64,000 nucleotides of DNA from a delta proteobacterium MLS_D (GTDB lineage Bacteria > Desulfobacterota > Syntrophia > Syntrophales > UBA2210). The stretch covers positions 1 to 64,000 of the forward strand of contig LQBH01000024.1 in NCBI GenBank assembly GCA_002030015.1. The letters run 5' to 3'. Every line of letters starts with the position of its first letter. Positions within the stretch are counted from its first letter, which is position 1. Below are positions 4,613 through 56,263 of this stretch, piece by piece. The notes under the pieces are model-generated. The model saw nothing but the letters and a program-made list of their open reading frames with translations, had not been told where the DNA came from and searched no databases. Made by a program: the position numbers and the translations under genes.

Positions 4613-4706
4613 GGAAGTGCCAAGGTCTCTGGTGGGCCTCCTGGACTTCAAATCCAGTGTGAGGGGCTAGTAACCTCTCAGGTGGGTTCGATTCCCATGC
4701 ACTTCC
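4613..4706 (+). tRNA. selC: tRNA-Sec (anticodon TCA)
   Basis: 8-bp acceptor GGAAGTGC/GCACTTCC, anticodon arm CTGGA-CTTCAAA-TCCAG, long variable arm TGAGGGG-CTAGTAA-CCTCTCA, T-arm GTGGG-TTCGATT-CCCAT. Confidence 0.93.
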
Positions 4707-37175: not shown

Positions 37176-38882
37176 TTACTTTTCCGGTTCCTCGATGAGT
37201 ATCAGCCTGGAGTACCGCGCCTTCAGATCGTCGCCGGCCACCATTTCATATTCTTCCTGAAACTCGCGCCAGACCGACGCAAGAACATTCCCGAGCATTT
37301 CCTTCCGTCGCGGGGTCTCGTTTTCCATGAATGGCGTGAATGCCGTCGCAAACTCTCCGCTCAAGCGGGACATACGGTAAGGAGGTCCCGATTCCCCTCG
37401 GCGGGCGAGTTCAAGAAATTGCCTCGCAGATGAAGGAGAAAGTCCGAAATATCCCGGTTCTGCTCCCGTCATCATGCGCGCGAAAAAGGTAAGAAGAAGC
37501 TGCCGGAAGGTGATGCCCGGAGAAACCGCCAGATTGCGATCCAACGGATACGCCCTGTCCAGTTGTGCAAAGAGCCTGTCCAGAACGAGCAGATCATCCA
37601 ACGCGGCACGACAGGATTCCAGATCACGGGTATACTCGAATTCACGGTACCCGGCATGATCGGACGACATATCGTAAAATTTCGGACGCCCCGCCAGCAA
37701 TCCGGACAGCATCGAGTCTTCCGGCTCCCCCCAGAATGACGTGGCTATGCCGGCTTCCCTGAACCAGCCTTCACCAACGAATCGCCGTGCTTCCCGTGCG
37801 ATATCCGCCACAAAACCGTATCCTACGCGGAACAGGGACGAAAGCGGATGAAGACGCAGAGCTTTTTCCGCCTCCATCTCATCTCCACCGTAAAGTTCTT
37901 CCAGTGCAAGACTCACATACGCTGCGGCCTTGCCGCCCGCCGTTGTCAGCTCCTCAAGTTCCCGGCCCGTCAATCCGTCGGCCACAACAATCCTGTTGCC
38001 GAGACCGGCGAACTCGAAACAGAGCCGGTCAAAGGTGGCTGTATCGGAGATCCGTTCCATGGCCCGCCCGAGCAGGTTCAGCGAACCGGCATGGGCGAGC
38101 GGAAGCCGGGGCACGGCGTACTTATCATCTTCCTCCATATCGGGTCGTGAATCGATAAACCGGTGATCACGATCCGTTCCGAGATCGGCGGGATCAAGCG
38201 GCGCGTATATCTCGAGTGCCTCGTTAAAAGGGAGGAACCCGTCATCTGCCAGCCGGGCCTTCCTGAAATGATACATTTCTTCTTCCATCTCGGCCGGGAT
38301 TATGCCTCCGAGCGTCATCAGTACCCACTCGTAACGCCGTTGATCGAAATCGGCCATCGTCTCCAGAAGACTTCTGACGGCGGGGTACAGTTCCTCGTCG
38401 CGTGGACGAACAAAAATCACGCTGTCAATTGAAAAAAACCCCTCCGGCACTTCGACGCCGTCATCGTCGGCGGGATCGATCGTTATGACTTCGACAGCTC
38501 CGTACAGGTAACGGTAAGCCAGAAATAAACCATCCGTCAGAAACCACGGGACGAATCGTTCGGGATCGGACTCCATGAATTGTTCCACCCATCCTTCAAG
38601 CCGTACGCCGTCGATCCGGTCGCCGTTCCACACATCCATATCAAGAAGATGTTGCCACTGCTGTTCCGACCCGAGAACAAGCAGCAGGGGCCGCTGGTCA
38701 TCCATTTTTTTCACCAGCCAATAATAATCCTGCCGGGACAAATGCCGCACGGCCTCCCGGGGATCGGGCAGTTCCATGATCCGTTGCCACAGGTCTCCTT
38801 CAGCCACATTAAAAGGCGTGAAAGAAACGGGCGCTCTTTTCTCATCCGACTGCCGTTTCGATACCGATCGTTTTTCTGTCAC
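37176..38882 (-). CDS. Large conserved-looking cytoplasmic protein, unknown function (possibly DUF6178 family)
   Basis: 568 aa acidic ORF; FNVAEGDLWQRIMELPDPREAVRHLSRQDYYWLVKKM...; family name from memory only. Confidence 0.7.
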   Translation of the reverse strand: MTEKRSVSKRQSDEKRAPVSFTPFNVAEGDLWQRIMELPDPREAVRHLSRQDYYWLVKKMDDQRPLLLVLGSEQQWQHLLDMDVWNGDRIDGVRLEGWVEQFMESDPERFVPWFLTDGLFLAYRYLYGAVEVITIDPADDDGVEVPEGFFSIDSVIFVRPRDEELYPAVRSLLETMADFDQRRYEWVLMTLGGIIPAEMEEEMYHFRKARLADDGFLPFNEALEIYAPLDPADLGTDRDHRFIDSRPDMEEDDKYAVPRLPLAHAGSLNLLGRAMERISDTATFDRLCFEFAGLGNRIVVADGLTGRELEELTTAGGKAAAYVSLALEELYGGDEMEAEKALRLHPLSSLFRVGYGFVADIAREARRFVGEGWFREAGIATSFWGEPEDSMLSGLLAGRPKFYDMSSDHAGYREFEYTRDLESCRAALDDLLVLDRLFAQLDRAYPLDRNLAVSPGITFRQLLLTFFARMMTGAEPGYFGLSPSSARQFLELARRGESGPPYRMSRLSGEFATAFTPFMENETPRRKEMLGNVLASVWREFQEEYEMVAGDDLKARYSRLILIEEPEK

Positions 38883-39715: not shown

Positions 39716-40027
39716 GGTGATCCCTCCTCTCTGTCATTGATTTTTCTGTTCGCGTCGGATCGCCTTTTCAACATCAGCGATTCCGCCGTCTCGTCTTTAA
39801 CTTTCCGGTATCACTACCGTATTCCGGTTTCACTTGTAAATTAATCACGGTTTGATGTTTGTCAAGATGAAAGCTTCATCAGGACACTGCAGAACCGATC
39901 ATAGAGTCCTTTCTGAAAAATCCGTTATTCAGATCGGTGGTCGGCGCTCACGCTCTTTCGCAACAAGAACGGTAACAAAAAGAAGACGGCAGACTTTACA
40001 ATACTGAAGGAATACCCGGCTTAAAAA

Positions 40028-40052
40028 AAGCTGCAGCGAAGTGCTGCAGCTT
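40028..40052 (-). terminator. Intrinsic terminator closing the six-gene exported-protein operon
   Basis: Minus strand AAGCTGCAGC-ACTTC-GCTGCAGCTT followed by TTTTT. Confidence 0.75.
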
Positions 40053-40147
40053 CCGGAAGTTCATCCCGACGGCACATAATCAGGCGTCTGTATTCGCTTC
40101 AACGTCCCCCGAATGATACTGCGAGAGTTTCCTCTCACCTCATCTTT

Positions 40148-42139
40148 TCATGAGTTCAGTAACTCGCGCACCTTGTTGATGAGCAGTTCCGTTGGAGCAC
40201 AATAAATATAGGCGCCGCGCACGGGCTGCCATTTTTTATCCACAATCCGTCCCAGCTTTTTGTGAAAGTAAACGAGCCGGTATTCCACTTCGTCGCTGTC
40301 CGAGTCGTGGTAAATGACATGGTCCACGACGGGTTCGCCGACCCCCGGGGACAGTGACAGTCCTCTCTGGTCGACAAAGGATTTCCCGAACCTGTTATAA
40401 CGCAGTTCAACACTCACCCGCGCCACGTCCATCTCTTCAAGCTCCACGAGATCAGCTTCCGCCTCAATCACCATGGGACTGACCGGAGCGGCGAGGGTTA
40501 CGGCCATCATGTCGCCCTTCCGCCATTGCGGCTCTGCGGGATACAAGTATCCACCCCGCAGGCTCCACTGCGTTGCATATTCAAAGGTCTGGGCATCGTC
40601 GCCCATGCGGGCGTACGTCAAGGTCGCGGTCTGGCCATTCGTTTCGAGATACTTGCGATCAATGGTCCTTTCATCGATGAAGGGGCGCCCGCCCTTTCGC
40701 GGCACCCGAATCTGAATCGTGGCGTAGTTTACCATTTCCTTGAATATATCATAGGCCTCGTTGTCGATGACAAAGCGCATTTCTCGCCGCTGAAAAAAGG
40801 GGTCGTCAAGGTTGACTTCGGCAACAACCTTGGGGTTGTCCTTGTACTTCTCGTACCAGGCGCCCACGTTGCCGGTCATGGTGTGCTGTTCGTAGCGGGA
40901 AGTAATGCCCGAAAGTGTAATTGAGTATTTAGACTTTCGAGAAATTTCTTTCCGCTGGAACACGGTATAGCGATAATGGCTCACCTTGGCCGCTTCCTTA
41001 CGCATTGCCTCCATGGCTTCCTGATCCGACTCATCGGGATCCGCACCTGTAATCTCCTCTTCCGATGGTTGGCCGAGACGGCTCTGCATGTCGAAAAAAG
41101 ACTCCAGAACCATCTTGCGGAGTGCGCTGTCAACGATTTCCTGATCCCGGTCCGGTATATGGTCTATCTCTTCGAAGGTGACCGTTCCGGTTTCCGTCAG
41201 GAAATCCATCATCTGTTTTTGCTCATCTTCCGTTACGGTCGTTACTTTCCGGGTACTTATGTTGAACAGATTATACCACTTGGGGTTCCAGTATCGTTTC
41301 CGTTTTTTTGTCTTGTCTCGCGCGTACGTATACTCGCTTTCCATCTCGTGATATTTCTCATAATCAAATACAATTCGCACATCGTAAGAGGGAAGCTTAA
41401 CCACGTATTTCAGATCAAAGACAACGGAAATATCAGTGGTGGGCTGTTCCAGGCTCTTGGCGAGCAGTTGGGCGCCGTACTGATCCAGCCGCGCCGCTAC
41501 GGCAACTGCCTGACCTTCCATTACCGGGGCCTTGCCGCTGGTGATCAACGTGGAGGCAAAGCCTTCATCCGTCAGGGTTGCTGAAACCACATGAAAGCTG
41601 TTGCCCTCAGCGCCTCCTTCCAGGGGCACGGCGCCCTTGAGATGTGCCCCTTTAACCTTTTTACCGAGCAACGACTGGGTTTCTTTCTGCTGTTCCTCCG
41701 TTAGACCGTATTCAACAAGGAAATGGAGAATGGCGCCCTCGGCGCCGCCTTCTTCCAGGCTTTTGTCTGTTACAAACCGGACCAGGGAGAACTTCGGGGT
41801 GCCGTCGGGATGAACGCTGACACGTGGATTGGCCGGCAAGTGATAATAATTTTTTGAAGTCACGGCCGAATCGCTGGTGGCCGCGGGGAAACAGCGCACA
41901 GTAGTACCGTCTCCCAGTTTGACGTCAATGTGTCGGCCGTACTGTACCCCACCCACCTCCTTGACTGCCTTTGCAGGCGGCACGGTCAGGGAAGGCCGAA
42001 GCGTGGGAGATTTCAGCTTCATTTCATGTATCTTTTTGTCGCCCGGTGTCCCGAATAATTCGGGTTTGGCTGCGGCACTCTGTATCCACAAGCCCACAAC
42101 AGCTACGCTGATTATTATCATCGGGATTTTTTTCAGCAT
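40148..42139 (-). CDS. Exported protein of unknown function, paralog A of the 40-50.6 kb cluster
   Basis: Signal peptide (MLKKIPMIIISVAVVGLWIQSAAA); KNYYHLPANPRVSVHPDGTPKFSLVRFV; TSGKAPVMEGQAVAVAARLDQYGAQLLAKSLEQPTTDISVVFD. Confidence 0.85.
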   Translation of the reverse strand: MLKKIPMIIISVAVVGLWIQSAAAKPELFGTPGDKKIHEMKLKSPTLRPSLTVPPAKAVKEVGGVQYGRHIDVKLGDGTTVRCFPAATSDSAVTSKNYYHLPANPRVSVHPDGTPKFSLVRFVTDKSLEEGGAEGAILHFLVEYGLTEEQQKETQSLLGKKVKGAHLKGAVPLEGGAEGNSFHVVSATLTDEGFASTLITSGKAPVMEGQAVAVAARLDQYGAQLLAKSLEQPTTDISVVFDLKYVVKLPSYDVRIVFDYEKYHEMESEYTYARDKTKKRKRYWNPKWYNLFNISTRKVTTVTEDEQKQMMDFLTETGTVTFEEIDHIPDRDQEIVDSALRKMVLESFFDMQSRLGQPSEEEITGADPDESDQEAMEAMRKEAAKVSHYRYTVFQRKEISRKSKYSITLSGITSRYEQHTMTGNVGAWYEKYKDNPKVVAEVNLDDPFFQRREMRFVIDNEAYDIFKEMVNYATIQIRVPRKGGRPFIDERTIDRKYLETNGQTATLTYARMGDDAQTFEYATQWSLRGGYLYPAEPQWRKGDMMAVTLAAPVSPMVIEAEADLVELEEMDVARVSVELRYNRFGKSFVDQRGLSLSPGVGEPVVDHVIYHDSDSDEVEYRLVYFHKKLGRIVDKKWQPVRGAYIYCAPTELLINKVRELLNS

Positions 42140-42244
42140 GGTTACACCCCCACGTATGTTAATCTTTATTTTTTATCGACAGGTCGAGCGCCCACATTGT
42201 GAACACCCATAAAGCCGCCCACCCGAACGGCTTTCCATTCGAGA

Positions 42245-44008
42245 CTATAATTCCGGCGGTACCAGGACGAGGTATGAACTTTCCAGTGGGATCCACTCCC
42301 CCTCGATACTTTTGCCGGTCCGTGAATACCAGTTTACCCGGTATTCCACCGGGTCTTCCGGGTCATGAAAAACTACAGCCGTGCTGAAAGAATCAGCGTC
42401 AGTGGCCCGCATCACGGCCAGGCGCTTTGTTTTTACCTGTCCGAAAATGTGATAACGCACCTCTACCATGGCACTGCGTATGTCCGCGTCTTCGAAGAGA
42501 AAGCGGTCAGCGTCTATTTCCAGGTCAAGTCTTCTCAGCGGCGGGGCAATGGTGACCATGGGGTTGCTGCTGACATTCCATGAATCGGTATCAGCGGGGT
42601 CGCTGACGGTATGCCTGCCCTGGATGCTCCAGTTGGTACGATACCGGTAATCAAGCCAATCCGCTCCCGACTGCCCGAGACGGGCATAGGTCCAGGATTT
42701 GCTGAGATGACCTTCGCGGATGTCCTCCCTGGTGAATATCACTTCACCCGTGGCGTCATCGTGGTCACTGTAAGCTTTTCGCACCGCCACACCGGCAAAG
42801 TTGATCATGTCCTCAAAAGCCCCGCTGAAATCTCCATCGATACAAAAATAAATATCCCGCTTTTGAAAGGCCGGGTCAGCCAGATTCACCACCCGAAACA
42901 GCCGTGGATTATCCTTAAATTCCTGATAGAGTCCTGAAATATTGCCCGCGGTGTAAACCGGGACCTTGACCACGGACCGGCGGGTCAGGTTAATGTTGAA
43001 GACAGCCCGGTTTATATCTTCACGCTGTTTCAAAACATATTGATCATCGGTATAATATTTCTGATTACCTGTACCGGTAAAAAGTTTCGCCAGCCATCCC
43101 TTTTTCTGGCGACCCTTGATCTGGCCTTCTTCGACGGCTGTTTCCTTTTCAGGAACAGCGGTAAATCCGGCTGTCGTGTCAAATATGATTTCCGTCAGCT
43201 TGGTGCTCACCATGTCCACCAGGGCCTGCATGGCCTGGCTGGCCGTATCTTCCGGAAGGCGATCGAGAACATCGATTTCGACGGTGCCGGTGCGAACCAG
43301 TTCGTCAACAATATCACGGATCTGCCGTTTGGTGTATCGTTTCTGCACGCTCTGTACCTTTGAAAAGTGCGTGTAGACGGTGCTCACGTCCGCGTGGATA
43401 CGTGCATTGAAAGAGGGAAGTATGGCTTCGTAATAGGCGCTCAGGGCTATCGAAACGTCGGAGGTCGGTCGGTTCAGTGAATCCCAGAGCAGGGTGGCGC
43501 CATGGGGGGTCAGGGTCGCGGCTACGGCCGCTTTCGAACCGGGTGTTACCGGGGCCTTGCCGCTGCTTATCAGGTTTTCCGTGAAGCCTTCATCTGAAAG
43601 GGTCCCCGAGATGATGGCAAAGCTCCCTTCCTGGTCCTGTTGCAGAGGAACCGGACCCAGAAGTTTTGCATCAGGCTGCTCAGCCTTTAATTCCTCGCGA
43701 AGGGCTTCCAGTTCATCAGGCGGCAGGCTGAAAGTGACCAGTATGTGAAAAAGCCCTCCGCTTGTTTCTCCGTCGGGATCTATAAACTTCACTACTGACA
43801 GCTCAAGCGAACCATCCGGTTTTGTGGAAACCCGCGGTGCCGGAGGCAGATAATAATAGGCGTTCGGGTCACCGGCATCCTGAAGAAGGAGGACGCCGTC
43901 GATCTCCAACTGCCCTGACTCGTAATTTACCAGGGCACCGGCGGGACAGGCCGAAATCATGAATCCGGCCATAATAAGCAGTGACATCAGGCAATATTTT
44001 CTGATCAT
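42245..44008 (-). CDS. Exported protein of unknown function, paralog B of the cluster
   Basis: Signal peptide; NAYYYLPPAPRVSTKPDGSLELSVVKFI; SSGKAPVTPGSKAAVAATLTPHGATLLWDSLNRPTSDVSIALS. Confidence 0.85.
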   Translation of the reverse strand: MIRKYCLMSLLIMAGFMISACPAGALVNYESGQLEIDGVLLLQDAGDPNAYYYLPPAPRVSTKPDGSLELSVVKFIDPDGETSGGLFHILVTFSLPPDELEALREELKAEQPDAKLLGPVPLQQDQEGSFAIISGTLSDEGFTENLISSGKAPVTPGSKAAVAATLTPHGATLLWDSLNRPTSDVSIALSAYYEAILPSFNARIHADVSTVYTHFSKVQSVQKRYTKRQIRDIVDELVRTGTVEIDVLDRLPEDTASQAMQALVDMVSTKLTEIIFDTTAGFTAVPEKETAVEEGQIKGRQKKGWLAKLFTGTGNQKYYTDDQYVLKQREDINRAVFNINLTRRSVVKVPVYTAGNISGLYQEFKDNPRLFRVVNLADPAFQKRDIYFCIDGDFSGAFEDMINFAGVAVRKAYSDHDDATGEVIFTREDIREGHLSKSWTYARLGQSGADWLDYRYRTNWSIQGRHTVSDPADTDSWNVSSNPMVTIAPPLRRLDLEIDADRFLFEDADIRSAMVEVRYHIFGQVKTKRLAVMRATDADSFSTAVVFHDPEDPVEYRVNWYSRTGKSIEGEWIPLESSYLVLVPPEL

Positions 44009-44010
44009 GA

Positions 44011-46716
44011 TTACACCCCTCTGTCCGGGAGTTCATCCCAGTAAATGAGGTTTCCTTCAAGCTCGCGGGGAGGCGCCGTGACAACCCTGCCGCCCTGAAG
44101 ATACCAGGTAATGCTGACGGAAGGCGGCGGTGCATCCCGGTCTTCGGGTATATCCAGCATCATTGATGAGGCCGGCCCTTTGTTGCGTATCGTTGCCTCG
44201 GTCGTTACCGGTTCTCCGGCGACACAGCTCGTAAATGTTATCACTGCATGGCGAACACCGGCGGCATTCAACTCTTCTCCTTCGCCCTCCACTGTCACGG
44301 TACGGTACCGGTGCGGTGGCTGAAGGGCCACCATGGCACTGTCATACGTCGTCGGGGGAATCCTGATCTCCATTCCCCCGTAAAAAGACCAGAGGGTTTC
44401 TATGGTATAGTTCAACCAGTCTTCCCGATCGTTGTCCCCTTTCCAGCCATAGAGCAGGTTGAACGCGTTCCCGCTCTGGTTGAATCGTTCAGGGGTGATT
44501 ATCACCTCGTCCGTGGTCACATCGTCCGACTGGTGGCGCTTTTTCATCTGCACCGTTACAAAATTCATGTGCTTTCCGAATGTTTTCGAATCCTGGCCGT
44601 CAAGAGTCACATGGATTTCCCGCTGTTTGAATACCGGATCGTCGATATTCACGGCCCGGAATATCCGGGGGTCCTTTCCATACCGCCGATAAAGATCCCC
44701 TATGTTTTCGGTCATGGCAAAAGCCTGGGTTTCGGTGCGATAGTGGTTCATGTGGTAGACCATCTTTCCGCTCCGCTTGACATGCTTCATCTGGTAGGAG
44801 GCGACCAGGGAAAACCCGGGAGTATCCTTTTTTTGTGATGCTTTTTCTTCGGCTTTTTTCTTGTCATCCGGTTTTTTCTTTGACGCGGCTTTTTTGCCAT
44901 CATCCGGAGTCTCCACGGATTTCACCAGCTTGTCGGTCAGTGCTTTCACCACCTGTTCCTTTGGATCTTTTTCCGTCTCTGTCTTATCCGGCGAGGCAGA
45001 GCCTTCTTCGGCGCCTGATTCATCAGCCTGCGCGGCGGCCTGCGCGGTGGAGGAAACAGCTGCCTCCTCGGTCCCGCCCGTTTTCTTTTCTATCTGGCTC
45101 GTCAGAAACTTGATTCGTCCTTCCACTTCGTTCGATCGCTGAACCGCGGGTTTCGCATGCTCCAGGTATGCCTGATAGGCGCTCACCGCTTCTTTGCTTT
45201 TTCCGGATTCGTATCCGCTGGATCGGGCTTCGTCATCAAGCCGACGCGCCGTGTTGTATAATTTCGATGAAAGCACTTCAATCCTTCTCAAAGTTTCCTT
45301 TCCCTTTTCACTGCTTTCTCCCAGAAAAGGCAGTGCGTTTCGGAACGCGGCAAGCGCTTCCTCGCTTTCTGCTGTTGCTTCAAGACAATGTCCAATATAG
45401 AAATAGATGAGTCCCTGTCCCTGGTCGGTCGTCCAAAGATTAAAAGCTTCTCTGTATTTCGGAAGGGCTTCATTACAGCGTCCGAGGTGGCGCAGACACT
45501 GTCCGATACCGAAAATCAACTGCCCGCGGTATTCGTCGTCGGAATTATCATCCAGTTGAATGCACTTCTTCAGCCATTCCATGGCCTCCTGGTAGTTCTT
45601 TTTTTGATAAAGCTCGTCCGCCTTTTGATATGCTTCGCCGGCAGTTTGCTGGTCTGCTGCATGGGCGATTGATGTACCGGGCGCCAGTCGTGACAGGGCG
45701 AGCAACATCTGATTTACACCATGACCTGGTAGCGGAGGGAAGGTCAGTTCACTTTTCTTTTTCGGCGTGGAGGTTTTCTTTTCCGCCGGCGCGGTCCTGT
45801 CTTTCAGCATCTTGACGGCCTGGTTCAGGTTGTCATAAGTTCCCTTTTGTTCCGCCATCCGGGTCAATTCATCCGGCGCCGCATCGAACATGACGCTCAG
45901 GAGCTTGGCATTGGCACTTTCGATAATCCTGTCCATCATGGCATGTTCGCCCTTGGTGGTAATCTTGATGGCGCCTGTCTGGCGCAGCTCCTGAAAGAGC
46001 AAGTCTATGTCGATACCGAACCACTTGTACTGACCTCCGGCCTGCACCCGGTGGTGTTGTGATACGCGTTGCCAATCGGCTTCGAGAGTCGCCTCGTAGG
46101 GTTCGCGCACACCGGCGAACTCCATGTCGAAGACGATAGAAATATCCGGGGTGGAACTCTGAAAACTTTCCCAGAGCAGCTCGGCGCCCTCGCGGGTCAG
46201 CGCTATGGAGACAGCGGCTTTCTGGCCTTCCATCAAAGGCGCCCTGCCTGCCGCCACAGTCCTGGTCAGCGTTTCGGCTCCTTCGGTAAAAGAGGTAACC
46301 AGGGCAAAACTGCCCGTGCGATAGACTATCGGTCCGGCAATTCTGCCATTTTCATGGGTTTGCTGAAGCGCCGCCTCCGCGGCCCGGACGCGACTTTCAT
46401 CCGCTCCGTATGTAACGAGAAAATGGACAATGCCGCCGCCTTCGGCACGGCCGGTCCCCGCCTCTCCCGTCTCCTGAACGCGGGCGTACTTAAGAAAGGA
46501 AAACTGCGGTCTGCCGTTCTTCATGGACAGACGGGGGCGATCGGGAAGATAATAAAAAACATCGGCTTCCTTTAATGACTGATAACAGACCAGATCTCCG
46601 CACCGCTCCATTTTATCCAGGTTGATTTCCTGTGAGCAGGCAGGGGGAGCCCAGAAAACTACGAGCAGGATGACAACTCCGGCCACTGCTTGCAGGCCGA
46701 CACACAGCTTTTTCAT
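44011..46716 (-). CDS. Exported TPR-containing protein of unknown function, paralog C of the cluster
   Basis: Signal peptide; DVFYYLPDRPRLSMKNGRPQFSFLKYA; AAGRAPLMEGQKAAVSIALTREGAELLWESFQSSTPDISIVFD; central TPR-like repeats YQKADELYQKKNYQEAMEWLKKCIQLDDN. Confidence 0.85.
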   Translation of the reverse strand: MKKLCVGLQAVAGVVILLVVFWAPPACSQEINLDKMERCGDLVCYQSLKEADVFYYLPDRPRLSMKNGRPQFSFLKYARVQETGEAGTGRAEGGGIVHFLVTYGADESRVRAAEAALQQTHENGRIAGPIVYRTGSFALVTSFTEGAETLTRTVAAGRAPLMEGQKAAVSIALTREGAELLWESFQSSTPDISIVFDMEFAGVREPYEATLEADWQRVSQHHRVQAGGQYKWFGIDIDLLFQELRQTGAIKITTKGEHAMMDRIIESANAKLLSVMFDAAPDELTRMAEQKGTYDNLNQAVKMLKDRTAPAEKKTSTPKKKSELTFPPLPGHGVNQMLLALSRLAPGTSIAHAADQQTAGEAYQKADELYQKKNYQEAMEWLKKCIQLDDNSDDEYRGQLIFGIGQCLRHLGRCNEALPKYREAFNLWTTDQGQGLIYFYIGHCLEATAESEEALAAFRNALPFLGESSEKGKETLRRIEVLSSKLYNTARRLDDEARSSGYESGKSKEAVSAYQAYLEHAKPAVQRSNEVEGRIKFLTSQIEKKTGGTEEAAVSSTAQAAAQADESGAEEGSASPDKTETEKDPKEQVVKALTDKLVKSVETPDDGKKAASKKKPDDKKKAEEKASQKKDTPGFSLVASYQMKHVKRSGKMVYHMNHYRTETQAFAMTENIGDLYRRYGKDPRIFRAVNIDDPVFKQREIHVTLDGQDSKTFGKHMNFVTVQMKKRHQSDDVTTDEVIITPERFNQSGNAFNLLYGWKGDNDREDWLNYTIETLWSFYGGMEIRIPPTTYDSAMVALQPPHRYRTVTVEGEGEELNAAGVRHAVITFTSCVAGEPVTTEATIRNKGPASSMMLDIPEDRDAPPPSVSITWYLQGGRVVTAPPRELEGNLIYWDELPDRGV

Positions 46717-46730
46717 GGTTCATCCCTCCT

Positions 46731-48026
46731 TCATCTCTTCTGGATTACTCCCTTGAAACCCTTTATTCCCCCGGCTTTTTCTTTCGTGTCTACCTGTTCG
46801 AGCCGCGGCTTAACCCAGACCGTCCAGTCATGAGTGGCAGTCTCGCCTGCAGCGATACCAAGAATAATGGACACTTCCTTGCCGGCCCAGGGGCTGAGGT
46901 CGACATCGATGCTGACCGGTTCCTCCGGCGACACGTGTTTACTGAATAACGTTACATATTCCCCGCCCTCACGGGCCCAAACTTTGAACGTCGCCCCGTC
47001 GGAATCGTCGGCGCCCCTGATGAACGCTGCCGTTGCCCTGAAATGAACCGATTCATCCAGAATCATTTTCGGGTACGCTCCTCTTATCCACCCCCCCTGC
47101 CTCTTTCTGGGATGGGTCCGCAGAAGAGATTCGACGCCTATGTCCGGATTTACTTTTGCGCTTGCAGCGGTCATCACATAGCCCTGTTTATCACTCACCC
47201 TGCCGGGATACGACAGACGAAGCGTTTTCCCGTCCGGCGATCCGCTCTTCCATTGTGCCGCGCCCACATTTTTAAAAAAATCGTAACTGTTGGCAACCGG
47301 TACAGATTCTTCATCTGTTTCGGAAGAATCATCCGATTGTTCCGCTTTTCCTTCTATTTTTCCTCTCGCCTGCAGCACGGTACCTGCGGGTATAAACACA
47401 CCGGGCAACGGCGTTGTTTCCCGCTCTTCATCATCGGCCAGGGCTACCGCTTCTTCTTCATCCATGGCGGGCGGCTGGTCCGGAGCATCGCTGTCGTTCC
47501 ATGTCTTTACCAGGTCATAGACCAGTTTTCCGAATGGTCGGTCTTCGTGACCTTCCCGAACCAGGAAAAGTTCCACCTGATCGGATTCCACTACTTCTTC
47601 AGAATCATCCCAGTCGCTTCCCCATTCGCTTTTTTTCTTGCGGATGGTCAGCCGAGCTTTCCCAGACGCCCCCTGAATCGGATTCAAAGAGGTTTCAAAG
47701 CTGTCCAGCGGGATCCCCCACTCGAGAATTCTTCCGTCCACATAGACACCGTCGGCCCGCTTAACATTTTCATATGTCACGTCGAGCACCAGCGCGTTGC
47801 CTCTTCGTTCGGCCACTTCAACCCTGCCGATATGACCCTTGTATGTCCCCAGCCATTCATCCATGGCCTGTTCGAGGCCTTCTTCCGCGGCCTTTCCCAA
47901 AACATCGGTCAGGGTCTGCAGAAAACCTCCTTTCTCCGTATCTTTATTTTCTGCTTCCTGCGCTGCCGCAGGAAGACCTGCGAACAACATTAACGCGGCA
48001 ATACAACCAGCCAATATTGTTTTCAT
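46731..48026 (-). CDS. Exported protein of unknown function with a C-terminal carbohydrate-binding-like beta-sandwich
   Basis: Signal peptide MKTILAGCIAALMLFAGLPAAAQ; C-terminal region VHFRATAAFIRGADDSDGATFKVWAREGGEYVTLFSKHVSPEEPVSIDVDLSPWAGKEVSIILGI resembles galactose-binding/NPCBM-like folds. Confidence 0.8.
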   Translation of the reverse strand: MKTILAGCIAALMLFAGLPAAAQEAENKDTEKGGFLQTLTDVLGKAAEEGLEQAMDEWLGTYKGHIGRVEVAERRGNALVLDVTYENVKRADGVYVDGRILEWGIPLDSFETSLNPIQGASGKARLTIRKKKSEWGSDWDDSEEVVESDQVELFLVREGHEDRPFGKLVYDLVKTWNDSDAPDQPPAMDEEEAVALADDEERETTPLPGVFIPAGTVLQARGKIEGKAEQSDDSSETDEESVPVANSYDFFKNVGAAQWKSGSPDGKTLRLSYPGRVSDKQGYVMTAASAKVNPDIGVESLLRTHPRKRQGGWIRGAYPKMILDESVHFRATAAFIRGADDSDGATFKVWAREGGEYVTLFSKHVSPEEPVSIDVDLSPWAGKEVSIILGIAAGETATHDWTVWVKPRLEQVDTKEKAGGIKGFKGVIQKR

Positions 48027-48080
48027 TTCACGCCTCCTTTGTTCGTAGGGATTTTCGAAGTTCTTTTTCGTTTTGCCTTT

Positions 48081-49091
48081 TCAATCCAGCGTCTTCCCCT
48101 TTATGTCACCCGGTTCGTTCAGGTCGCGATAATCGGTCACATCCAGCAGGGTTTCCCCTTTTTTCGCGGTCCAGGACCCAACGTCGCGACTTCCATCATT
48201 AAAAATACGGGTAACGCGGAAGCGATAGGGTTCATCCAGATTCCGGGACAGCTTGAAATCAATACGGGTACGGTATTCGCTATCCGGTCTGAAGGTTACT
48301 TCTTCCACCAGGTCCCGTCCCGGCGTAGGGATGGCCACCTCTACTATTTTCGCGTACAGATCCGGATCCAGTTCTTCCAGAAAATCAAAACAAAAAACAT
48401 CCATCCCGGTATACCCGCGAACCATGCGCCCTCCCAGATCGGTGCGTCTGAACTTATAGGGAAACGCCTCCATATCCAGGTCAATGGGGAGGGTGGATAC
48501 GACAATAGTTTCCGACTCGTTCCACTCGTCTCCTTCCCGCCGCAGTCCCGAGAGATGCTCTTCAAGAGTAATGCTCACCTGGGTTTGACCTGCATTTACA
48601 GATTCCCAGAGGATTTCTGCGAGATATCTATCCAGAAGAAGAACCAGCTGTTCGCCGGCCCAACGGCTCCCCTGTTTCCATTCCCTGCTTTGATCGGCAA
48701 AAAGAAGTTTCACAATTGTTTCAGCCACCGGCATGCTTCTCAACCGGGGATCGGCAACGCCATGGTCGCGCAGAGCGCTTCGAATCAGGGCCGGGGTCCC
48801 GCCGTCACGGCCCCGCTCGATTCCCATGTTGAGAATGCCCTTGACCCAGAACAACTCCCTGTCCCCGGTGCCTGAACGTCCGCCGTATCGATAAATATCG
48901 AACCCATAGTCCGGTTCATGGTCGGTAATTGATCCCAGGGCGGGACGGGCCGGCGCGAGATACCAGGTATTCGTATCCTGATGATCCTGAAACACCCTGA
49001 CTCCATTGATGTCCCGATAAGTTCCAAGGTCCGGAGCCGCCTGGACGGACAGCGGAAACAACAGAACAATCAGCAGAACCATCAGTCTCAC
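48081..49091 (-). CDS. Exported protein of unknown function, shorter paralog D of the cluster
   Basis: Signal peptide; GVRVFQDHQDTNTWYLAPARPALGS; AEILWESVNAGQTQVSITLE resembles the core motif of paralogs A-C. Confidence 0.75.
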   Translation of the reverse strand: MRLMVLLIVLLFPLSVQAAPDLGTYRDINGVRVFQDHQDTNTWYLAPARPALGSITDHEPDYGFDIYRYGGRSGTGDRELFWVKGILNMGIERGRDGGTPALIRSALRDHGVADPRLRSMPVAETIVKLLFADQSREWKQGSRWAGEQLVLLLDRYLAEILWESVNAGQTQVSITLEEHLSGLRREGDEWNESETIVVSTLPIDLDMEAFPYKFRRTDLGGRMVRGYTGMDVFCFDFLEELDPDLYAKIVEVAIPTPGRDLVEEVTFRPDSEYRTRIDFKLSRNLDEPYRFRVTRIFNDGSRDVGSWTAKKGETLLDVTDYRDLNEPGDIKGKTLD

Positions 49092-49096
49092 GTTTA

Positions 49097-50629
49097 CTAC
49101 TCCTTTTCCGACTCAGCCAGGAGCGACTCTATGCGGGAAGACCCGATGAAAAGGTTCAGGCTGCGGCCATCGTTCCATTCAATTTCTTCAATGGTTTCTC
49201 CGGACTCTTTTACGAGCAGCAACCGATACTGGTAAATCAATGGATCAGCCCCCCGATCACTCGGAATATACAGGACAAGACCGGATGATGTGTTTTCGCT
49301 TTCCGTCAATGCCAGTTCGCGTTCCATGACGCCTGACTTTCCCGCCGTAAAGTAAGGAGAGCGGAGGCGGATCACCAGCTTGTATATGCCGAATTCAGAA
49401 AAAATAGCGGGTATGGCCTCCAGGTTGACGGGACTTGCAGGCGCCAGGGCGACACCCCTTCGCACTTCCTGATCAATGGCTTTCAGCCCTGCTTCGTACG
49501 TCGTATCCAGCGACGTGCCCAGCCATGCCACGAGAACGTCATGACCCAGCACGGCACCCACTTCCGGAAGCCTGAAGATTCGTTCAGCTTTTGGCGGAAT
49601 AGGCTTGCTTTCCTTGAGTTCCCTGGTAATACGTTCTAATTTGCTTCCCCGCATTCGATAGGCGTTGATTTCTTCAGGGATTAAGGGAAAGCTGGTCAGA
49701 TTCACAAGCTTACCTGAAGGTTTTCCTCTGCTCCAATCGTCGAATCCCTTCACCTGGTTGCCACTGAAGCTGTCGTACCGGATTCGAATGGGTACCGGTA
49801 CCGACTCTGAATCTACCTGGACCCAGAGTCGGCCACTCAATCCTTCCCGGGCAATCTGAGCGAGCACTTCTTCCACTTCATCCTGTGTCAGGGAAAGCGT
49901 AAGCCTGAATGGTTGCCTGAGACTCGCCGGCGGGTAAACATGAATACAATCGGGCGACAGCGAAAGTCCTGCTGCGACTGCTTCGAAATCGACCGTTGCT
50001 CCCAGGCCCTTTATAGATCGCAGATCAAGAAGGTCGGAAGGTCCGAGCCCCAAAGCTTCCCTTAAAATGGCCCTGAGGAGCATGACGTCTCCTTCACGAT
50101 GGGGAGCCGCAAGTTCGGCAGTGACCATCACCGAGGGCTGTCCAGGTTCGGCAAGGTGGTTATACTGGACACTGAGACCATACCCGGCTTCACTATGTAC
50201 CAGAAGAATCTCCCGGGGAAGATAATAAAATACATGGCCGGCGGCCTTATCCTGGAAAATCAGGTGACTTTCCCATCCACAGGCCTGGCTCAAATCATAA
50301 AGCAATGCCGGATCTTCAATGATGTCGGCAAGGTCAAGGGCTGTCCCGGGATCCGGTCCTTCCGGTTCGGGTGGATCCGCAACGGTGACCGGTCTCAGTT
50401 GCGGCAGAAGTTTCTTTTGGATCACGGAAGTGGGTATCCTTACCCGGGTAACAGGTTTCAGTCGCCTGTCAGACACTTCTTTTGTCCCGGAAAGACCCTG
50501 CAAAACGGGGGGTTGCTGCAGATCTTTTTCCTGTGCCTGTACCTCAGAAAGAAAAAAACCGTAAAACGCTGTCGGCAACAGGAGCATGATCAGCAGAAAC
50601 AATGTGCTCATTGAAATGGTTTTTTTCAT
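49097..50629 (-). CDS. Exported protein of unknown function, divergent paralog E of the cluster
   Basis: Signal-like N-terminus MKKTISMSTLFLLIMLLLPTAFYGFFLSEVQAQ; HLIFQDKAAGHVFYYLPREILLVHSEAGYGLSVQY; C-terminal FGIYKLVIRLRSPYF...YQYRLLLVKESGETIEEIEW. Confidence 0.75.
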   Translation of the reverse strand: MKKTISMSTLFLLIMLLLPTAFYGFFLSEVQAQEKDLQQPPVLQGLSGTKEVSDRRLKPVTRVRIPTSVIQKKLLPQLRPVTVADPPEPEGPDPGTALDLADIIEDPALLYDLSQACGWESHLIFQDKAAGHVFYYLPREILLVHSEAGYGLSVQYNHLAEPGQPSVMVTAELAAPHREGDVMLLRAILREALGLGPSDLLDLRSIKGLGATVDFEAVAAGLSLSPDCIHVYPPASLRQPFRLTLSLTQDEVEEVLAQIAREGLSGRLWVQVDSESVPVPIRIRYDSFSGNQVKGFDDWSRGKPSGKLVNLTSFPLIPEEINAYRMRGSKLERITRELKESKPIPPKAERIFRLPEVGAVLGHDVLVAWLGTSLDTTYEAGLKAIDQEVRRGVALAPASPVNLEAIPAIFSEFGIYKLVIRLRSPYFTAGKSGVMERELALTESENTSSGLVLYIPSDRGADPLIYQYRLLLVKESGETIEEIEWNDGRSLNLFIGSSRIESLLAESEKE

Positions 50630-51572
50630 TATCACAAAGCACCTCACGTGATATTTCATTTTTTCTTATCCAGAGAACCGCAACCCCCGAAAAAATCACC
50701 TGGCCCGGCAATCACTGCAATGAAAGGCACAGGAATGCTTTTCGGTCCTTTCGGAACATCGGGTCCGACTTTCTTCATTGAGGCCCTTCGTTGGTTATTG
50801 ATCGAACAGCCAGGAGCCTTTCACCGGCGGTACGACCGAATACAATCCAGCATCTTGAAAAAATAAACCCATGTTTTTCAACGAGCCCGACCACCAGTAA
50901 TTCTTACTATACGTTATGCCTGGTTCTTTGAAAATCATTCATTGTGAGATTCTCTTCACATCACGGACACTGTATGCTTCTTCACACTGGTGAGCAGCAA
51001 CAGCATCCGTTCAGCCGACGGATTCCTGACACATGGGCCGTCGCTGACCCGCGGCATATTCTGCAAAAAATGCACGTCGCCCTCACCAGTCTTTTGAACA
51101 AACCTCGGGTCCTGGTAAAAAACGTTTTGCCCTTTCCCGACGGTAAACAGGCTACAGTAAAATTTGACTATTCCCGCCATGTGTTCACGATATCGTCATC
51201 ACTCAAGATATCATTTTCGATTGCATTGTGACCGTGAAAGAAGCCCGGTAGAGAAATGAGTTAGTGAAGAGGCTCGACAACATGAGCTTGGAGGAAAGGG
51301 CTTCTTGGGTTGTGTGCTGATTTACCAGCGTCCCCTGGCGCCCGGAATCAATGAACAACGTGAATCTCTCGATTCGGCGGAGTGCAGGCACTAATACCTA
51401 TAAGACTTATTATCGGCAATATGCCCGTCGTGTCAAGTTTTTTGGAGATTCAGATGGGCTTATTCCAAATCCTGTTGAAGGGCCTCCGGACGTTGGCCGT
51501 CCATCGCATCCGCTCCCGGAACAGACTTCCGGCGGGAGGAAATCGGGCGATACAATGTGGACGGAGCAGGGG

Positions 51573-54497: not shown

Positions 54498-54800
54498 GTC
54501 ATTTTCCTCCCTTATTTCAGCCGGCGCTCACGAGTCGCGCGGGACCGCCGGATCTTTCCAGTCCGTAAACGATGGTACCGAATCACTATGTGTCTTCGGA
54601 ATCCCCCCATCGCGTCACCATCCCCGATGGTGAAGGACTCTACATAAAGAGCCTTCCTGTTGTCAAGGCTGATTCGAATAGAACAGGGACTTTCCCGTCA
54701 GGGACGAGAATGAAGTGTGTCACGCGATCAGGAAAGAATTTTTTGAGCCGACCTCCAGGCAACCATAAAAATAGTTTCCGGCACACGAGTCGAAAAAGTA

Positions 54801-55173
54801 TCAGAGTGGATCTGTAAGCCGAGTTCTGTTTCTTCCGGAATATTCCGGAAGACGGTGATCATTCATCTGGAACAACGGTTACCCGCCGTCTCAAGCGACA
54901 CTACCCGAGAGCTTCGGACGGGCCGCCCTCAAACGCTCTCCTATTCGGTCTTGCTCCGGATGGGGTTTACCATGCCTTTCCCGTCGCCGGGAAAGCGGTG
55001 AGCTCTTACCTCGCCTTTTCACCCTTACCCCGTCCTGCGACGGGGCGGTATATTTTCTGTGGCACTTTCCTTAGGGTCGCCCCCAGTCGCCGTTAGCGAC
55101 CATCCTGCCCTGTGGAGCTCGGACTTTCCTCCGGCCCGATTGCACGAACCGGCGACCACCCGATCCACTCTGA
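54801..55173 (-). ncRNA. rnpB: RNase P RNA (bacterial type A)
   Basis: Forward text starts TCAGAGTGGATCTGTAAGCCGAGTTCTG and ends ...CACCCGATCCACTCTGAC; contains GGAACAACGGTTACCCG..., CTTCCTTAGGGTCGCCCC, hallmark P RNA segments on the minus strand. Confidence 0.93.
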
Positions 55174-56187: not shown

Positions 56188-56263
56188 TGGTGGGCCCACC
56201 TGGGATCGAACCAGGGACCTACCGGTTATGAGCCGGTGGCTCTGCCAATTGAGCTATGGGCCC
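56188..56263 (-). tRNA. tRNA with CAT anticodon (Met or Ile2), encoded CCA
   Basis: Reverse complement GGGCCCATAGCTCAATTGGCAGAGCCACCGGCTCATAACCGGTAGGTCCCTGGTTCGATCCCAGGTGGGCCCACCA folds as a cloverleaf. Confidence 0.95.

Follow-up and report, generated by a model that had tools for sequence, protein, structure and literature searches.

The locus studied here lies on contig LQBH01000024.1 of the delta proteobacterium MLS_D, in a stretch of 64,000 nucleotides that was analyzed as a whole and is called the window below. ORF calls placed six genes on its minus strand, in the order E-D-X-C-B-A, between positions 50659 and 40148, with intergenic gaps of 5, 54, 14, 2, and 105 nt in the order E to A. 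The paralogous members share an N-terminal domain of ~200 residues (the N-domain); their middle parts vary, and their C-terminal modules are beta-sandwich-like. The features of the cassette are, from its upstream to its downstream end:

51409..51436, minus strand: candidate sigma-70 promoter, TTGACA-16-GATAAT, 11/12 matches, ~750 nt upstream of E
49097..50659, minus strand: gene E, 520 aa, first gene, tentatively a very remote family member; N-domain-like part at ~49736-50272
48081..49091, minus strand: gene D, 336 aa, minimal paralog with the N-domain and a short C-terminal part
46731..48026, minus strand: gene X, 431 aa, non-paralog with a unique N-part and a mobile C-terminal domain at ~46797-47285
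44011..46716, minus strand: gene C, 901 aa, paralog; N-domain at ~46042-46635, TPR-containing insert at ~45322-45666, shared C-terminal module
42245..44008, minus strand: gene B, 587 aa, paralog and most conserved member; N-domain at ~43334-43921
40148..42139, minus strand: gene A, 663 aa, paralog and sister group of B; N-domain at ~41315-41887
~40021..40055, minus strand: intrinsic terminator closing the operon 3' of A, a GC-rich hairpin with a T-run

The initial annotation had described six consecutive minus-strand ORFs separated by 2-105 nt and closed by a terminator, a layout borne out by the ORF calls and a fold test. The terminator, which reads GGAAGCTGCAGC-ACTTC-GCTGCAGCTTTTTTT on the minus strand, gave a fold z of -3.6 with no shuffle equally stable; a simple consensus terminator scan did not list it at ~40055-40021. 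For gene E, a start at 50659 and an internal ATG at 50629 are equally plausible. The ~900 nt upstream of E are free of large ORFs, and the number of promoter-like sites (12 found vs 8.0 by chance, sd 3.4) is within chance. Rfam matches in the window were a selenocysteine tRNA (4613-4706), an RNase P RNA of class A (54799-55171), and a tRNA (56191-56263).

Judged by hydropathy only, all six proteins start with a hydrophobic signal-like N-terminus, as had been proposed, and none of the six shows a later transmembrane-like stretch (maximum KD19 past residue 70 ≤ 1.26). The six proteins would presumably be exported through the Sec route. B was also considered as a lipoprotein on account of an ISAC motif near its N-terminus, and this was rejected, as the motif is not kept in the B orthologs.

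The relationships among the six proteins were then analyzed by profile comparison. A, B, and C are mutually similar over both the N-domain and the C-terminal module (phmmer, E ≤ 6e-39), and their invariant columns hold mainly structural residues. The D family profile matches the C of the window at E = 1.9e-10, the hhalign score of C against D is 72 vs ≤ 24 in 40 column shuffles, and a broad N-domain profile built without any D retrieved the D of the window at 8.7e-11 in a whole-genome search; the N-domain profile match is present in A, B, C, and D. For E, the hhalign comparison with B was weak (score 42 over 27 columns, vs a null maximum of 21.8), and that with the broad N-domain profile reached a score of 163 over 157 columns (null mean 137, maximum 142, 30 shuffles), with no HMMER match at 1e-5. 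X scored 136 against the same profile, which is the null level, and shows no similarity to the family. For this broad profile, the hhalign probabilities (99%) were set aside because values nearly as high came from unrelated proteins and from shuffled columns, and scores were judged against the null instead.

As judged from these profile scores, the paralogy of A, B, and C is clear and that of D real but remote; E may tentatively be counted as a very remote member near the limit of detection. The similarity of A-C to D and E is therefore not at chance level, being far above it for D and modestly above the null for E, and the five divergent paralogs first proposed stand firmly for A-D and only tentatively for E. 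The shared motifs first described were recovered overall, except in B, which carries DVSIALS for DISxxFD and WSIQGR for WSxxGG.

To survey the neighborhood of these genes, other Desulfobacterota were searched, and all six recur contiguously in five further loci, one from a Desulfobacteraceae MAG (L007) and four from genomes of four other families of the same phylum (L028, L029, L030, and L031), making six loci in total. The order is X-E-D-C-B-A in all five, so the window differs only in the place of X. In a 396-genome sample of the phylum, full-length E and X were found in exactly the five genomes with a canonical A/B/C set; the sixth genome matched by the A/B/C profiles (G311) holds a divergent array, which neither the X nor the E profile matched. 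X travels with the paralog set, an observation that goes beyond the initial annotation, as do the block-wise gain or loss of the set and the family members without signal peptides described below. Identity to the window is highest for A and B (53-68%) and lowest for X (34-40%).

No member is missing from any of the six complete cassettes. In a tree of the N-domain, each of the paralogs A-D is monophyletic (support 98-100), A is sister to B, and the distant arrays described below fall outside the A/B/C clade. Hence, the paralogs arose before the cassettes separated, and according to this tree their divergence is ancient and precedes the spread of the cassette. The idea that the members are unequal and not redundant copies is upheld, as A-D keep their own clades across six genomes and complete cassettes lose none. 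Pairwise gene-distance correlations among the cassette genes are 0.92-0.98, values that shared inheritance alone would also give. In a genome from the same taxonomic order as the window (G145), a short contig of 2.7 kb (L014, G145:C119) carries a divergent D-like gene with a B-like gene immediately after it and no C in between, and the full six-gene set may be dispensable in some genomes.

Outside the six genes, no transporter or cofactor gene was found in common to the loci, and none of them showed an anchor, sortase, or secretion companion. Genes for a DUF6627 protein, a C39 peptidase, and a TPR protein lie downstream of the cassette in L007 only and were taken as coincidence; DUF6627 was sought in the genome of the window and not found, and control genomes were also without a match.

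The cassette is absent as a block from a genome of the same genus (G002), where the ABC permease and HSP20 genes that flank it in the window are only 218 nt apart. Adjoining the HSP20 gene in the window (37176-38882) is a gene for an uncharacterized protein of 568 aa that is kept in the family with 34-53% identity. Identity to the window ranks five other genomes differently for UvrB (G145 71%, G395 65%, G415 64%, G398 63%, G285 60%) and for B (G145 47%, G395 58%, G415 59%, G398 68%, G285 68%). These conflicting orders suggest horizontal transfer of the cassette, on the thin basis of a single marker gene; for G145, an old divergent copy could be the alternative. The cassette is one heritable unit that has probably moved horizontally, and it is gained or lost as a whole.

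The C-terminal 160 residues of X recur in other Desulfobacterota proteins, either alone or with other domains. The second half of the NPCBM/NEW2 model (PF08305) matches the C-part of two X orthologs and two stand-alone homologs with E values of 5e-4 to 0.08, all below the gathering score (best match, in a stand-alone homolog, 20.4 bits vs 23.9), and it does not match the X of the window itself. In another Desulfobacterota genome, a protein with an XendoU endoribonuclease domain and a lamin-tail domain (L084:2082-4602) is encoded directly upstream of a protein bearing the C-terminal domain of X.

The absence of a recognizable family, as stated from the beginning, was borne out, and profile searches placed the members in no characterized system. 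Searches of the six proteins and their relatives in Pfam, NCBIfam, PHROGs, PADLOC, and PDB sequences returned only the TPR in C and the NPCBM trace in X homologs. D, E, and X received no domain from Pfam or NCBIfam, these two libraries revealed no EAD, regulatory NTPase, peptidase, or other effector domain in any of the six, and no enzyme family was matched. Against the PADLOC defense models, C had only weak TPR matches and B a match at chance level. No link to phages or prophages was seen, with no PHROG matches and no relatives in phage records or viral contigs, and literature searches found nothing on the cassette. The TPR is present in the C of the window and of L007 and absent in L028, L029, L030, and L031; as it is lacking in four of six orthologs, it was rejected as a defining feature of C.

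An AlphaFold2 model of B, built from six alignment rows (pLDDT 68.6), shows an alpha/beta N-domain and a C-terminal half rich in beta structure, with a middle part of low confidence between them. The N-domain modeled alone reached a pLDDT of 67.1, with ten-residue blocks at 75-91 across residues 11-90 and lower values elsewhere, and Foldseek found no match for it in the PDB at E ≤ 0.001. With the full B model, Foldseek searches of the PDB and of viral folds gave only a generic resemblance to beta-sandwich or tandem Ig/FN3 proteins, pilins, and adhesins, which was rejected as an identification (rmsd mostly > 10 Å, TM ≤ 0.25 for the full model). At this model quality, the predicted N-domain fold is an unrecognized one, not a proven new fold.

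The N-domain is also found in multi-paralog arrays without signal peptides, in G311 (Desulfobacterota; L032/L039) and on two plasmids of Alphaproteobacteria, p2 of Pararhizobium qamdonense (NZ_CP119567, L036) and pNSM5TCa of Paracoccus sp. SMMA_5_TC (NZ_CP102356, L037/L038). The C profile matches L036:16958-19444 at 8e-25, and the B profile matches L037:9453-11690 at 4e-15 and L032:8469-10796 at 3e-15. G311 holds three clear N-domain members and two remote ones, and one of the clear members, of 1521 aa (L032:10851-15416), ends in a trypsin domain above the Pfam cut-off. Several N-domain paralogs lie on the Pararhizobium plasmid, where a protein of 588 aa in the array (L036:15179-16945) looks papain-like by eye (GTCVPTS...HAVLALR), with no Pfam match. 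The Paracoccus plasmid carries a run of at least five N-domain paralogs (record positions 119012-144864), which adjoins trypsin-EAD1, EAD1, and STAND-like NTPase genes; within or next to the run there are also PLD, tyrosinase, and a further trypsin. This array may represent a conflict locus of a new kind. Proposed conflict systems include EAD1, trypsin, and STAND among their components (Kaur et al. 2020 and 2021; PMC7159879, PMC8195603), and the arrays may belong to such systems, judging from gene adjacency in a single plasmid lineage and from one fusion.

The reading that we favor, as a plausible one somewhat short of probable, is that the cassette encodes one multi-protein structure outside the inner membrane, an exported hetero-oligomer assembled through the N-domain with X as a partner that binds glycan or anchors the complex. 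A-D, and probably E, would pack through the shared N-domain into a single complex; the beta-sandwich modules would lie exposed, for binding to a protein or a glycan; and X, with its mobile and weakly NPCBM-like domain, would dock the complex to polysaccharide or peptidoglycan. We infer the hetero-oligomer, its non-enzymatic nature, its binding role, and its location in the periplasm or at the surface from several lines of evidence: the six contiguous loci, the co-occurrence of E and X with A/B/C, the age of the paralogs and their gene-distance correlations, the absence of the whole block in G002, the short gaps with a single terminator, the beta-rich C-terminal half of the B model, and the NPCBM trace in X homologs. 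Against it, the gene-distance correlations would also be expected from shared descent alone, the models are of moderate confidence (pLDDT 68.6 and 67.1), the G145 pair lacks a C, and the TPR insert, which could be a contact surface, is missing from most orthologs. A multi-subunit assembly had already been suggested from the adjacency of unequal paralogs; their retention as an unequal set is supported, and the assembly itself stays the best interpretation.

The relatives in arrays raise the rather unlikely alternative that the cassette is an exported branch of a conflict-type scaffold, with the paralogs acting as carriers or sensors of a defense or antagonism apparatus moved to the periplasm or surface, and with relatives elsewhere acting unexported together with proteases, a phospholipase, and NTPase signaling. 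The company of trypsin (fused at L032:10851-15416, adjacent in Paracoccus), PLD, tyrosinase, EAD1, and a STAND-like NTPase would fit this, as would the patchy distribution and block movement of the cassette. However, effectors and NTPases are absent from the six genes, PADLOC gave no match to a defense system, the six-gene composition is stable and not polymorphic, and only a few distant loci supply the effector links. It is similarly improbable that the genes form a tandem array of independent exported adhesins or glycan binders, held together only by shared regulation and transfer. The generic pilin, adhesin, and FN3 resemblance of the beta-sandwich-like C-parts, the strong divergence between members, and the NPCBM-like trace in X relatives are all consistent with such binders, but six complete cassettes that lose no gene and in which each paralog is monophyletic would be unusual for interchangeable ones, and no anchor, sortase, or secretion companion accompanies them. 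Very unlikely, in our view, is an envelope pathway of an enzymatic or transport type, such as one for polymer modification, with the paralogs as non-equivalent enzymes or carriers. The unrecognized fold leaves room for a cryptic activity, as do D, E, and X without domain assignment, but the mainly structural invariant columns of A/B/C, the lack of any enzyme family match, and the lack of a transporter or cofactor gene shared by the loci outside the six speak against it.

A more general reading, which we regard as possible though doubtful, is that the N-domain is an undescribed building block for hetero-oligomeric scaffolds made of sets of at least four non-interchangeable paralogs, either unexported with effectors or exported. 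In some lineages, an unexported scaffold would carry effectors of the protease, lipase, or oxidase type, controlled by STAND/EAD; in Desulfobacterota, the same block would build an exported six-protein structure in the periplasm or at the surface. If the exported hetero-oligomer is real, the cassette would encode an undescribed multi-subunit envelope structure made from one protein family that is unnamed in the libraries searched, and its relatives with conflict-type effectors would link this structure to an intracellular scaffold of defense or antagonism. The cassette is compact and testable: it has six genes, a genome of the same genus offers a naturally empty site, and orthologous cassettes are known from five other loci.

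Finally, the cassette was compared with known systems; within the libraries searched, it matches no family, fold, or system. Tandem Ig/FN3-type surface proteins and pilins resemble it in their beta-sandwich-rich C-terminal part, through generic Foldseek matches, and differ from it in structure (TM ≤ 0.25) and sequence, with no similarity, and by its alpha/beta N-domain, which has no PDB match at E ≤ 0.001. The likeness to the NPCBM/NEW2 carbohydrate-binding module is sub-threshold and confined to X relatives, the X of the window being without a match. The arrays on the plasmids and in G311, whose members all carry the annotation hypothetical protein, share with the cassette the N-domain, several paralogs in a row, and, by eye, beta-rich C-terminal repeats, but they have no signal peptides, no X, and other member numbers, and enzymes such as trypsin, PLD, and tyrosinase are fused or adjacent to them. 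With the EAD/STAND-NTPase conflict systems, the likeness is indirect only, via the trypsin-EAD1, EAD1, and STAND-like genes that adjoin the Paracoccus array; in contrast to the components of these systems, the six window proteins are free of EAD, NTPase, peptidase, and effector domains and look exported.
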